The notes under the pieces are model-generated. The model did not search any database. It saw nothing but the letters and a program-made list of their open reading frames with translations, and was not told the origin of the DNA. A stretch of DNA of 64,000 nt, taken from assembly GCF_900110765.1 (NCBI RefSeq), contig NZ_FOEO01000001.1:1-64000 (forward strand), given 5' to 3'. This document shows, piece by piece, positions 16,309-27,247 of this stretch (position 1 is its first letter; each line of letters begins with the position of its first letter). The position numbers and the translations under genes are program-made. The stretch comes from Pseudomonas sp. NFACC02. GTDB lineage: Bacteria; Pseudomonadota; Gammaproteobacteria; Pseudomonadales; Pseudomonadaceae.

Positions 16309-17562
16309 TTACGGATGAAGAGCTGCCAGACATGCTTCGAGCAGGTCCAGCCCCTCGTTCAACACCTCAGGCTCAATGGTGAGCGGTGCCAGCAGGCGAA
16401 CGATGTGACGGGCTTTACCGCTCGGCATCAAGAGCAAACCGCGCTCCCTGGCGCACGCCAGTAACTGGGCCATCTGGGCCGTGGCAGGCTTGCCGTCCGG
16501 CGTCCGCAGCTCGATGCCGCGCATCGCGCCGACACCGGTCAATCGCCCGAGGTAGGGCGACAGCTGTTGCGCCTGCCATTGCTCGTAACGGGCGAGCAAC
16601 GTGGCCGAATACTGCTCACTCCAGGCCGCGAGGTGCGCGTCGGTCATCTCATCGAGCGTGGCCAGGCCGGCCGCGCACGCCATGGGGTTCCCGGAATAGG
16701 TACCCCCCAACCCACCCTTGGGCAGCGTATCCATCAACGCCTTGCGCCCCACGACTGCACCCAGCGGTACACCACCGGCGATGCTCTTGCCGAGCAACAG
16801 CAGATCCGGCTCGATGCCCAGGCGGCTGAAAGCGAAGCGTTGTCCGGTACGCCCAAAGCCCGACTGGATTTCATCAATGATCAACACAATCCCTTTGTCG
16901 TCGCACAGGGTGCGCAACGCCTGAGCGAACTCGACGTCCAGCGCCAGGAAACCGCCCTCGCCCTGCACGGGTTCAATAATGAAGCAAGCGACCTCGTCGA
17001 GGTCGATCTCCACACTGAACAACCGTTCCATCGCCTTCAAGGCGTCGGCCGTCGAAACGCCGTTGTCCGCGCTTGGATACGGTAGATGAAACACGGGCCC
17101 CGGCAATACGCCGACTTTTTGCTTGTACGGCGCGACCTTGCCGTTGAGGTTCAGGGTCGCCAGCGTGCGGCCGTGAAAGGCGCCATCAAATGCAATCACC
17201 GCCGTCTTGCCGGTATGCCCGCGTACGATTTTCAACGCGTTCTCCGCCGCTTCGGCACCGCTGTTGGTGAGCATGCCGCTGACCGGGTAGCTCACCGGTA
17301 TAAACGCCGCGAGCCGCTCAATGAACTGCTGATACGGCCTATGCGGCGCTGCGTTGAACGCGTAGTGCGTCATGCGCTGCGCCTGCTCGCAAATCGCCGC
17401 CACGATCCTGGGATGACAATGCCCCAGATTCAGCACACCGATACCGCCGACGAAATCGATGTAACGCTTTCCGTCAACGTCCCAGACCTCAGCGTTTTTT
17501 CCATGCGTAAGGGTGATGGGATGAACGAACGAAATGGACTGGCTGACAGACGGGAAATCCAT
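16309..17562 (-). CDS. Class III aminotransferase (GabT-like)
   Basis: PLP-dependent omega-aminotransferase of 417 residues, similar in layout to 4-aminobutyrate or 2-aminoadipate transaminases. Landmarks: NSGAEAAENALKIVRGHTGK (phosphate-binding), FDGAFHGRT, the Walker-like EPVQGEGGF, IDEIQSGFGRTG with the PLP-contacting Asp, and the Schiff-base Lys in LLLLGKSIAGG (about 265). The final GTYSGNP block is also present. Substrate is uncertain among GABA, 5-aminovalerate and aminoadipate-type compounds. No succinate-semialdehyde dehydrogenase is adjacent. Confidence 0.88.
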   Translation of the reverse strand: MDFPSVSQSISFVHPITLTHGKNAEVWDVDGKRYIDFVGGIGVLNLGHCHPRIVAAICEQAQRMTHYAFNAAPHRPYQQFIERLAAFIPVSYPVSGMLTNSGAEAAENALKIVRGHTGKTAVIAFDGAFHGRTLATLNLNGKVAPYKQKVGVLPGPVFHLPYPSADNGVSTADALKAMERLFSVEIDLDEVACFIIEPVQGEGGFLALDVEFAQALRTLCDDKGIVLIIDEIQSGFGRTGQRFAFSRLGIEPDLLLLGKSIAGGVPLGAVVGRKALMDTLPKGGLGGTYSGNPMACAAGLATLDEMTDAHLAAWSEQYSATLLARYEQWQAQQLSPYLGRLTGVGAMRGIELRTPDGKPATAQMAQLLACARERGLLLMPSGKARHIVRLLAPLTIEPEVLNEGLDLLEACLAALHP

Positions 17563-17812
17563 GCTCTAACGACCTGCGAACGTGGGAAAGACGTCTATTC
17601 AAGCGATCTCCACCCCTTCTCACAAACGAAATAAAAGCAACGTTTCATTCCACTAACGACTGACATGGCTGGCAGGCTGCGAGGGCACCGGGCCAGGGCG
17701 ACGCACACGCGTAAGCGGAACAGGCGACGAAAAACCCCAGGAAGACTGTTTATGGGAGTCCGTCGTTATTCCGGAATGACTCGTTTTTACTTGTTGAAAA
17801 AATGCCCAGCTA

Positions 17813-17829
17813 TAAACAATCTATAAACA
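17813..17829 (-). promoter_or_regulatory. PhoP-box-like repeat TGTTTA-N5-TGTTTA
   Basis: Read on the minus strand, two identical TGTTTA hexamers are separated by 5 bp (11-bp period). This equals the enterobacterial PhoP consensus (T/G)GTTTA-N5-(T/G)GTTTA. It lies 250 bp upstream of the aminotransferase start and about 600 bp upstream of arnB. Which promoter it serves, if any, is unknown. Confidence 0.4.
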
Positions 17830-17990
17830 TATCCAGGACATCCAAGCCGAATGACTTATAGCGTCTTTTTCACCCCCTTCTCCTGCCTTCCCGCCCTTCC
17901 CCCTTTTTAACCATTGCGCTTAACAGTCATACGATAGCGGGCGATCACGTCCGGCCTTTGCCAAAAAGAATTAGCCGCAACGTTTAAACA

Positions 17991-18024
17991 TTTCAGTTCC
18001 TGTTCAGCTTCGCGAGCGTACGCT
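17991..18024 (+). promoter_or_regulatory. Putative arn promoter with TTTCAG-N5-GTTCAG repeat
   Basis: TTTCAG (17991-17996) and GTTCAG (18002-18007) form an 11-bp-period direct repeat. Eleven bp further lies a TACGCT -10-like hexamer (18019-18024). The geometry is that of promoters activated by PhoP/PmrA-class response regulators, in which the box replaces the -35. The arn operon is PhoP/PmrA-controlled in other bacteria, which makes the assignment plausible but unproven. Confidence 0.45.
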
Positions 18025-18431
18025 GGTGATGACAGATGAAGGACTGGATGCACCACAGCCCCTGTAGCACGGGGGCTCGCTAGAAAAAGTTATTGAGCCT
18101 AAACGACATTTATGACCTTTTCATTTCACCTTCAACAAAAGATGAGCACGTCTTTCTCACTGCTCTTCTCGGATAAAACAACAACACTTTATCAACGGAA
18201 TTTTCATGATTTATCTCCTACTATCCTGATAAAGAAAGTGCCAAATCTTGCGTTTCTCTAACAGGGCAGTAAATGCGACCCACCCAGGATCGGGCACCGC
18301 TAGCACCCGTTTTATCTGAACGCCCACGTGGCCGAAATTATTTAACAACGAGCGCCTTGTCTCTAAGCAGCTCGCGTTTGCTTGCGCCTCGACAATGTCT
18401 TCAACACCGATAACTGTGCAGGAGGGTCTAC

Positions 18432-19580
18432 ATGAGTCTGGATTTTCTTCCTTTTTCCCGCCCCAGCATGGGCGATGAGGAAGTGGCAGCCGCCACCCGA
18501 GTCCTGCGTTCAGGGTGGATTACCACGGGGCCGGAATGCCAGCGCCTGGAACAGCAGTTTGCCGAACATTGCGGCGCGCAGCAGGCCGTGGCGCTGTCTT
18601 CTGCCACCGGTGCCATGCACATCACACTGCTCGCGCTGGGCATCGGTCCGGGGGATGAAGTCATCACGCCTTCGCAGACGTGGGTCTCCACCGCCAACAT
18701 GATCTGCCTGTTGGGCGCGACCCCGGTTTTCGTCGACATAGACCGCGACACGCTGATGACCGACGCCGCGTTGATCGAAAGCGCCATCACACCCCGCACC
18801 AAGGCCATCATTCCGGTGCATTACGCCGGTGCCGCGTTTGACCTTGATCCGCTGTATGCCCTGGCCGAACGCCATGGCATTGCGGTCATCGAGGACGCTG
18901 CCCATGCTGCAGGGACGCGTTACAAAGGCCGGCCGGTCGGCGCCTCCGGCACCGCGATCTTTTCGTTTCATGCAATCAAGAACATGACCTGCGCCGAAGG
19001 CGCGATGTTTGTCAGCGACGATCCAGAGTTGGCCGATCGTGTTCGCCGCCTGAAATTCCATGGCCTGGGCGTCGATGCCTATGACCGCCTGACCCACGGC
19101 CGCAAGCCGCAGGCCGAAGTGATCGAGCCGGGGTTCAAGTACAACCTGGCCGACATCAATGCCGCCATCGCGCGGGTGCAGCTTGAACGTCTGGACACCC
19201 TTAACGCCCGTCGTGCGGAGCTGGCCGGACATTATCTGGAACGGCTGGCAGGCAGCCCCGTTCAACCTTTGGCGCATCCTCGCTACGACCAGCACCACGC
19301 CTGGCATCTGTTCATCCTGCGCATTGACGCAGAACGCTGCGGCCTGGATCGCGATGCGTTCATGAAAGCCCTGCAGGCTCAGAACATCGGCAGCGGCATT
19401 CACTTCATTGCGACCCACCTGCACAGCTACTACCGCCAGCGATTCCCTGAGGTGCACTTGCCCGAGACCGAATGGAATTCGTCGCGGCTGTGTTCAATCC
19501 CCTTGTTCCCTGACATGACCCGCGCCGATGTCGACCGCGTCGTCAGCGCCATTGAATCCATCGTGGAAGCCCGCTCGTGA
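18432..19580 (+). CDS. arnB: UDP-Ara4O--UDP-Ara4N aminotransferase
   Basis: PLP enzyme that transaminates UDP-4-keto-arabinose with glutamate to UDP-4-amino-4-deoxy-L-arabinose, in the cytosol. The 382 residues have the DegT/DnrJ/EryC1 fold: [28 protein letters not shown] (PLP phosphate region), [21 protein letters not shown] and the Schiff-base Lys in [16 protein letters not shown]. Length and motifs equal those of enterobacterial ArnB. GGAGG lies 8 nt before the ATG. It is the first gene of arnBCADTEF-ugd and overlaps arnC by 4 bp. Confidence 0.97.
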
Positions 19581-25443: not shown

Positions 25444-25856
25444 ACGCGCGCCGCGGCCTGAGTCTGGCCATGGGCAGCGTATTGCTGGTCAGCGCAGCAC
25501 AGCTGGGCATGCGCTGGAGCATGCAACGCCTGCCACACCCTGCCCAATGGCTGGCAGCGCAACAAGTCGACGCTGTAGCACTCAGCGTGGTGATAGCCGC
25601 GATCGCTGCATACGCCCTGTCCATGCTCTGCTGGCTCGGCGCCCTGCGTGATATGCCCCTGAGCCGCGCCTATTCGCTGCTCAGCATCAGCTACGCAGCG
25701 GTGTACGTACTGGCGGCGCTGCTCCCCTTTTTCAACGAGACACTCACCGCTCCTCGAACGGTGGGAGTCACCCTGATCGTGCTCGGCGTGGTGACGATCA
25801 ATTTCCGGCGTAGCTGCGACAACGGCAGTAACAGTGACAAGGAGCTTTCCCGATGA
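25440..25856 (+). CDS. arnF: Ara4N-phosphoundecaprenol flippase subunit ArnF
   Basis: 138 residues, four helices, paired with ArnE. Motifs include [41 protein letters not shown], typical of the SMR-like ArnF C-terminal half. The GTG at 25440 is chosen because it overlaps the arnE stop (GTGA) like every other junction of the operon; the reading frame itself is open much further upstream inside arnE. The stop overlaps the ugd ATG. Confidence 0.92.
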
Positions 25857-27247
25857 AAATAAGCGTCTTCGGTAGCGGTTATGTGGGTCTGGTGCAGGCG
25901 ACCGTGTTGGCTGAGGTTGGCCACGACGTGGTGTGCATGGACATTGACCCGGCCAAGGTCGAGCAACTGAGCAAAGGCCATGTGACCATTTACGAACCCG
26001 GTCTGGAAAATCTGGTTCGCGAGAACCTGGAAGCCGGACGCTTGCACTTCACCACCGACGAGAAACGCGCGGTGGAGCATGGCGAAGTGTTGTTCATCGC
26101 GGTGGGTACACCTTCCCGACCCGATGGCTCCGCTGACCTGAGCGGGTTCTTTGCGGTCGGCGACGCCATCGCTCGCCACCGCGAGACCCCGGTGATCATT
26201 GTTGAAAAGTCGACAGTGCCGGTGGGCAGCGGCGACGCGTTGCGCGGCCACATCGAGCAGAGCCTGCGCCAGTCGGCCCCGCTGCTGAAATTCGATATCG
26301 TGTCCAACCCCGAATTCCTCAAGGAAGGCTCGGCAGTCAAGGACTGCCGCCGCCCCGATCGCATCGTCATCGGCTGTGGCAACCCGGACGTGTTCCCTGT
26401 CATGCGCGAACTCTACGCCCCGTTCAACCGCAACCATGAACGCATCATGTTCATGGACCTGCGCAGCGCGGAACTGACGAAGTATGCGGCCAACTGCATG
26501 CTGGCGACCAAGATCAGCTTCATCAACCAGATTGCCGAGCTGGCCGAGCACCTGGGTGCCGATGTCGAATCCGTGCGCCTGGGCATCGGTGCCGACTCAC
26601 GGATCGGTTATGACTTCATCTACCCAGGCTGTGGCTATGGCGGCTCGTGCTTCGGCAAGGACATTCGCGCGTTGATTCACAGTGCGCGGGAAGCCGGCTG
26701 CTCGAACGATCTGCTCAATGTGGTCGAGGACATCAACGAGCGGCAGAAGAACAAGCTGTTCGACCGCATTAACGCGTTCTACAAGGGCGAACTCAAGGGC
26801 AAGACCTTCGCGCTGTGGGGGCTGGCATTCAAACCGAACACCGACGATATGCGCGATGCACCGAGTCGTGTGCTGATGGAATCGCTGTGGGCCGCAGGCG
26901 CCACCGTTCGCGCGTTTGACCCCGAAGCCATGCAGGAAACCCAGCGCTTGTACGGCGAGCAACCCAACCTGATCCTGATGGGCACGCCGGAATCGGTGTT
27001 GTTGGGGGCCGACGCCCTGATCGTCTGTACCGAATGGCAGCAGTTCAAGGCACCGGACTTCGACCTGATTCAACAGCGGCTCAAGTCACCGGTCATCTTC
27101 GACGGCCGCAACCTGTATGACACCGAGCGTCTGGCCAAGCGCGGCTTCCAGTACTTCCCGATTGGCCGGGGTGACTCCTGCAGCTTGCCCATTCCGCAAC
27201 AACTGTGGGTGCCTTACGAACTGCTGGCCAACCACCACGCGGTGTAA
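25853..27247 (+). CDS. ugd: UDP-glucose 6-dehydrogenase
   Basis: Makes UDP-glucuronate, the first precursor for ArnA, by two-step NAD-dependent oxidation of UDP-glucose. 464 residues: Rossmann motif GSGYVGLV near the start, [24 protein letters not shown], and the catalytic Cys in [14 protein letters not shown] (about 265). The [18 protein letters not shown] block of the C-terminal UDP-binding domain is also present. Being last in the arn operon, it makes the pathway self-sufficient from UDP-glucose. A terminator follows at 27258-27287. Confidence 0.96.

Follow-up and report, generated by a model that had tools for sequence, protein, structure and literature searches.

The window analysed here, a 64,000-nucleotide stretch of genomic DNA, comes from a Pseudomonas near P. 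abietaniphila; its ArnB is 96% identical to that of strain ATCC 700689, which is locus L002 in our comparisons. It carries an arn operon, the function of which is to mask lipid A against polymyxin-like peptides. Six genes of the operon (arnB, arnC, arnA, arnD, arnT and arnE) have scores that exceed their own NCBIfam cut-offs. The first of them, arnB, is separated by an intergenic stretch of 869 bp (17563-18431) from a divergent transaminase gene, and this stretch holds the features collected in Table 1.

Compared with 398 genomes of the genus, the whole intergenic DNA matched nine besides its own, every one on the transaminase side only. A 38-bp segment upstream of the transaminase gene (17619-17656) is 84% conserved in eight other genomes of the genus. 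The window has also lost a gene that we presume to be RidA-like and that survives in two remnants; the copy in L002, of 136 aa, is intact. Scanning of 17400-18500 for sigma-70 promoters and terminators gave no excess over shuffled sequence. For the analyses below, 81 arnB upstream regions were compared, namely that of the window and those of 80 related loci, which are given L numbers.

Table 1 Features around the arnB upstream region, in coordinates of the window
Feature	Position	Strand	Remarks
2-aminoadipate transaminase gene, divergent neighbour	16309..17562	-	NF049976, 748 bits (cut-off 650)
RidA-like gene (presumed name), two remnants	17696-17735 and 17765-17779 (17696..17779)	+	Still whole in L002 and L081, ahead of arnB
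First repeat, TGTTTA-N5-TGTTTA	17813..17829	-	Exact; 11/12 in L002 only
P1 box, TTTCAG-N5-GTTCAG, direct repeat	17991..18007	+	Exact match; likely Pseudomonas-type PhoP box
P1 -10 element, TACGCT	18019..18024	+	11 bp past the box; GCGTACGCT unchanged across six loci
Predicted P1 transcript leader, ~400 nt	18031..18431	+	Start placed from the -10 element
Hairpin in the P1 leader	18057..18077	+	In the window, not in the closest relative, L002
Conserved block ATGACCTTTTCATTTCA, ATGAC-N5-CATTTCA-like	18112..18128	+	17 bp; upstream of P2
P2 box, AACAAC-N5-ATCAAC-N5-TTTCAT, ColR-like	18180..18207	+	Three half-sites, 11-bp period
P2 -10 element, TACTAT	18219..18224	+	11 bp past the last half-site
arnB, first gene of the arn operon	18432..19580	+	NCBIfam
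Candidate ORF in the arnF place of the arn operon			Putative by position
Nucleotide-sugar dehydrogenase gene	25853-27247		Reaches the cut-off of that family; falls short of those of the UDP-glucose 6-dehydrogenase models

P1 and its relation to PhoP

An earlier note had pointed to two direct repeats of OmpR/PhoB-type geometry upstream of arnB, and that geometry is supported. The second of them, TTTCAG-N5-GTTCAG with TACGCT 11 bp on, is present exactly as described. The whole element, which we call P1, spans 17991-18024 (TTTCAG-N5-GTTCAG-N11-TACGCT) and lies ~440 bp ahead of arnB. Allowing up to two mismatches, boxes of this type number 10 in the window (4.19 expected), a count reached by none of 100 shuffles; allowing up to one, they occur at 53 sites genome-wide against 13 for the reversed pattern.

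Strict P1 was found in six of the 81 arnB regions (the window, L002, L003, L004, L007 and L081; shuffle mean 0.03) and a looser form in L027, L043 and L078 (shuffle mean 0; 30 rounds of shuffling in both cases), with another looser P1 in L218. It is missing from the remaining 75 regions, among them L005, whose ArnB is 85% identical; in three of these 75 a TTCAG-type site of looser form is present. Selection of the six P1 loci rested on the 12 box bases alone. They align without gaps (the alignment being anchored on 18 fixed bases), with 25 of 34 positions invariant; for the 12 box bases among these, invariance follows from the way the loci were picked. Outside the box, 13 of 22 positions are invariant, including TACGCT at N11, and none of the 40 flanking positions on either side is. 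Judged by this conservation, the second repeat exceeds chance. The putative role that the earlier note gave the repeat, that of an arnB promoter, is supported; the distance to the arnB ATG at 18432 would give a leader of ~400 nt.

PhoP is a magnesium-sensing regulator, for which two P. aeruginosa reports, in the portions available, describe a closely similar box. The consensus was given as GTTCAGNNNNNRTTCAG, accompanied by gel-shift and mutagenesis work on retS, a gene that PhoP represses (PMC3156716), and is quoted as CGTTCAGNNNNNRTTCAG beside a MEME motif, G/ATTCAG, from ChIP-seq (PMC7916210). In the ChIP-seq experiment arnB was enriched 6.9-fold, and it is absent from the regions that the available text names as bearing the motif (PMC7916210). 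P1 agrees with the P. aeruginosa box GTTCAG-N5-RTTCAG, as stated in those portions, at 11 of 12 half-site bases.

The composite pattern TTCAG-N6-TTCAG-N10..12-TANNNT has two matches in the 6.19-Mb genome and none when reversed; one lies before arnB and the other upstream of phoP, and the two share the arrangement of a box 11 bp ahead of the -10 element. The match on the phoP side ends an array of four GTTCAG half-sites, which is separated from the gene of the PhoP orthologue by an 84-aa ORF. This orthologue is the best match of E. coli PhoP in the genome (50% identical), and NCBIfam PhoP is its top model, at 252.5 bits and thus under the 336-bit cut-off; a 447-aa ORF directly after phoP is a putative PhoQ by position only. 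RTTCAG-N5-RTTCAG occurs at 12 sites in the genome (reversed, 0), three of them overlapping within the phoP array. Across the genus, the composite pattern was found in 305 of 398 genomes, and its reversed control in 14 (a hand count of rows). Among 28 match loci that were assessed, 21 had the match upstream of a PhoP orthologue, none upstream of arnB and seven upstream of neither; these loci were not a random draw and remained from 30 fetched after two with the motif misplaced in a short locus had been dropped. On this basis the second repeat is likely to be a Pseudomonas-type PhoP promoter, and we infer binding of PhoP to it. PhoP, one of the regulators to which the earlier note had pointed, stays a likely one, through the fit of the second repeat to the P. 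aeruginosa box.

The 84-aa ORF between the GTTCAG array and phoP (L153, 3126-3380, minus strand) has a signal-peptide-like start and found no match in an NCBIfam search. N-terminal stretches related to it stand at the equivalent place in five of the 28 loci.

P2, a probable proximal response-regulator promoter

A further candidate promoter, P2 (18180-18224), lies ~200 nt ahead of arnB and surfaced as the second conserved block in the clade alignment. It had been missed by the earlier note and would add a second arnB start with a leader of ~200 nt. A pattern with its geometry matches 59 of the 81 loci, a count that is not independent because the pattern was written after the clade alignments had been viewed. 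We therefore rely on a model from outside the clade, a 28-mer restricted to the half-site positions of the seven footprinted P. putida ColR sites listed in Table 1 of PMC2689224. It was a second attempt, made after a 17-mer matrix had scored the window P2 at background (3.7, against a shuffled-region median of 3.6).

With the 28-mer model, 72 of the 81 arnB regions have their best site ahead of a TANNNT element at N11; N13, N14 and N15 account for a single region each, and no region has N10 or N12. Among 810 shuffled regions, 12 show the N11 spacing. The shuffled 95% level is exceeded by 62 of the 81 regions. For the window the model ranks P2 highest, a score as high being found in 1.9% of shuffled regions, and P2 is likewise the best site in six of the seven clade loci, the exception being L003. 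Variation is lower in half-site columns than in linkers (0.63 versus 1.19 bits; 16 sequences), and four of five further genomes of the genus have a ColR-like site by this model. With the 17-mer matrix, too, a TANNNT element follows the best site at N11 in 68 of 81 regions. Set against the ColR core YYNASNNYTTTTTSAC, P2 misfits in the T-track and the last base, and it is the model confined to half-sites that favours it. The best window site of the 17-mer matrix is at -575 (17857-17873, TATAGCGTCTTTTTCAC), with a score of 13.4 against a shuffled 99% level of 12.4 and no -10 element at N11; in the alignment it is not retained in L002.

When applied to arnB of another genus in the family (L185-L206), the 28-mer model picked repeats of the CTTAAC type in 14 of 22 loci, with TANNNT at N11 near the ATG; 13 of these have CTTAAC twice and one has CATAAC and CTTAAC. 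The repeats are presumably PmrA-like by consensus. Since such repeats are picked as well, the model is not ColR-specific. In a third genus it found no site with a -10 element at 10 loci. The arnB promoter thus appears to have undergone turnover in this family. Among the 12 response-regulator loci of the genome that were viewed by eye, neither a ColR gene nor a PmrA gene was singled out. Taking the support from the 28-mer model against the background score of the 17-mer matrix and the CTTAAC picks, we have good confidence that P2 is a response-regulator promoter and moderate confidence that it is ColR-like, and we infer ColR, or a regulator of the same family, as its ligand.

Exact YYNACNNYTTTTTCAC occurs at 10 sites in the genome, against two for the reversed pattern, and seven of these were viewed further. 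In L140, a divergent ORF, by eye a putative lipid A deacylase (PagL), starts 118 bp away from an exact ColR-type site. Separately, an element like GTCTACGCT lies at most 150 nt from the arnB ATG in 21 of the 81 loci and is perhaps a further promoter.

P1-like and P2-like sites stand 190-250 bp apart in six loci of the window's clade and in L027 and L043. In the window, the conserved block at 18112-18128 lies between them; the search pattern for it was derived from the clade itself. The block is 67-68 bp from the first half-site of P2 in five of seven clade loci and 72 bp in L005, which has the block without P1. In L004 a weak match (9/12) lies 56 bp from P2, a distance shorter by 11-12 bp, or about one helical turn.

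The first repeat, the leader RNA and other readings

The other repeat of the earlier note, TGTTTA-N5-TGTTTA, lies exactly where it had been placed on the minus strand, and we take it to be the exact enterobacterial PhoP consensus. No other exact copy exists in the 6.19-Mb genome (reversed-pattern control 0), and with up to two mismatches the window has one site against 1.14 expected, which is no enrichment. The repeat agrees with GTTCAG-N5-RTTCAG, the P. aeruginosa box, at 8 of 12 half-site bases, the other four differing in register. Among the 80 related loci, L002 has an 11/12 copy at -642, 34 nt past the stop codon of the RidA-like gene, L023 and L067 have 10/12 copies elsewhere, and the other 77 loci reach 7-9/12. 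The alignment of the window with L002 gave no special conservation at the repeat. Thus the first repeat is not shown to exceed chance, and a regulatory role for it found no support in genome copies, window copies, the 80 loci or the L002 alignment. Its assignment as a PhoP box is not upheld. As for conservation among relatives, on which the earlier note had staked both repeats, the second is conserved (strict in 6 of 81 regions) and the first is not (11/12 only in L002).

The hairpin reported for the leader is present as a 9-bp stem. The segment 18045-18090 folds at -16.1 kcal/mol (z -1.71; 11 of 200 shuffles as good), and the P1 leader as a whole has a fold z of -1.73 (4 of 100 shuffles as good). 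A look-alike of the hairpin occurs in L081 and none in L002, and the hairpin is not shown to exceed chance. Rfam gave no match at gathering score across the whole window and, for 17563-18440, one chance-level match (E 0.35; 16.2 of 90 bits). In the six leaders examined, no upstream ATG is conserved with a Shine-Dalgarno sequence. The suggestion of RNA-level control of lipid A modification thus finds no positive evidence, and a structured-leader reading is unsupported by the fold z, by Rfam and by the absence of the hairpin from L002. With starts predicted from the -10 elements, the ~400-nt leader would be limited to P1 transcripts, those of P2 having one of ~200 nt; the long leader is most simply explained by stacked promoters rather than by a new RNA switch. 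A full-text literature search that combined the arnB transcription start site and leader in Pseudomonas returned no papers.

These results bear on several other readings of the region. It is very unlikely that the PhoP box is the TGTTTA repeat at 17813 and that RNA-level control resides in a ~400-nt leader starting from the second repeat: the match to the enterobacterial consensus, the single genome copy, the length of the P1 leader and the stable hairpin favour this view, but the repeat is off the P. aeruginosa box at four half-site positions, is approached at 11/12 by only L002 of 80 loci and stands on the minus strand, its L002 copy facing back to the 3′ end of the RidA-like gene. For the RNA part, the missing L002 hairpin, the want of a credible Rfam match and the fold z of -1.73 weigh against it. 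We give still less credence to the idea that the P2 block encodes a small translated ORF (roughly MKNQRGLNGIFI..LL) by which arnB is attenuated. Its frame is open, with ATG at the start place in five of seven clade loci, but the remaining loci have ATA, ACG or ACA there and, in the loci examined (a set that excludes L005), those ATGs had no flagged Shine-Dalgarno sequence. Furthermore, the three codon phases are equally variable (1.04, 0.94 and 1.03 bits) and the half-sites vary less than the linkers; on codon-phase variation the small-ORF reading was rejected.

It is also unlikely, though not to that degree, that P2 alone drives arnB with P1 minor or decaying, as the N11 site in 72 of 81 loci against strict P1 in six might suggest; against this stand the 13 of 22 non-box P1 positions invariant in six loci, with none of 80 in the flanks, and the location upstream of phoP of the sole other exact P1-pattern site in the genome. 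A serious possibility, by comparison, is that the ligand of P2 is not ColR but another regulator, for example PmrA, CprR or ParR. The half-site TTTCAT, which agrees with ColR TTTCAC at five of six bases and with CTTAAC at three, and the exact TTTCAC in P2-type sites of many relatives argue for ColR, but the 17-mer ColR model scores the window P2 at background, and the CTTAAC-type repeats of another genus, presumably PmrA-like, have the same N11 spacing. The available parts of two reports describe PhoPQ, PmrAB, ParRS, ColRS and CprRS as acting on arn in P. aeruginosa (PMC4244539, PMC10805311), and PmrAB, CprRS and ParRS would be candidates of this kind.

Probable tandem control of arnB

We consider it probable that arnB is under tandem activator-type promoters, a distal one for PhoP (P1) and a proximal ColR-like one (P2), because P1 is PhoP-type and P2 is a ColR-like site with a -10 element at N11. 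In low Mg2+, phosphorylated PhoP would occupy the TTCAG-N6-TTCAG repeat of P1 at the -35 position and bring RNA polymerase to TACGCT, yielding an mRNA with a leader of ~400 nt. From P2, with its three half-sites at an 11-bp period, its N11 spacing to the -10 element and its closest likeness to the P. putida ColR box, transcripts with a ~200-nt leader would arise, and two envelope-stress inputs would arrive at the operon separately. P2 is the more widespread in the genus and is therefore probably the older arnB promoter. The stacking might itself be a regulatory device, an idea that we hold to be improbable: polymerase from P1 would cross the 18112-18128 block and the P2 array, so that one system could modulate the promoter of the other, and the ~200 nt found only in P1 transcripts (18031-18230) could let PhoP-made and P2-made mRNAs be treated differently.

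Direct dual two-component control of arn/pbgP is already known, from Klebsiella, with two starts and PhoP and PmrA boxes, and from Yersinia (PMC2565834, as far as its text is available). Like the pbgP promoters of Klebsiella pneumoniae and Yersinia pestis in that report, the arn promoter region of the window would be a direct target of two two-component systems, here as predicted from sequence. In contrast to those promoters, it has a ColR-like second box in place of a PmrA box, a distance of ~200 bp between its two promoters and a PhoP box of the TTCAG type. What appears new here is thus the pairing of PhoP and ColR-like boxes ~200 bp apart.

Each candidate promoter also has its closest known counterparts in Pseudomonas. 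As described in the available portions of PMC7916210 and PMC3156716, the PhoP promoters of P. aeruginosa (retS, the arnB ChIP peak and oprH) share with the proposed P1 the GTTCAG-N5-RTTCAG box, the low-Mg2+ input and arnB as a target; P1 differs in that its first half-site starts with T and that it lies ~440 bp before arnB, and the retS site is a repressor site. The P. putida ColR promoters resemble P2 in having an NYYNAC-N5-TTTCAC repeat, to which five of seven add a third half-site ending in AC or AG 11 bp upstream, whereas P2 ends in TTTCAT and has no T-track, and arnB is outside the seven footprinted sites (PMC2689224, in the part available).

These comparisons advise caution, in that the enterobacterial PhoP consensus should not be carried over to Pseudomonas. 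At arnB, the boxes are ColR-like in most loci of the genus examined and CTTAAC-type in another genus, with a likely PhoP promoter added in the window's clade. The proposed arrangement of P1 and P2 provides a testable map of the possible wiring of a main polymyxin-resistance operon beyond P. aeruginosa.
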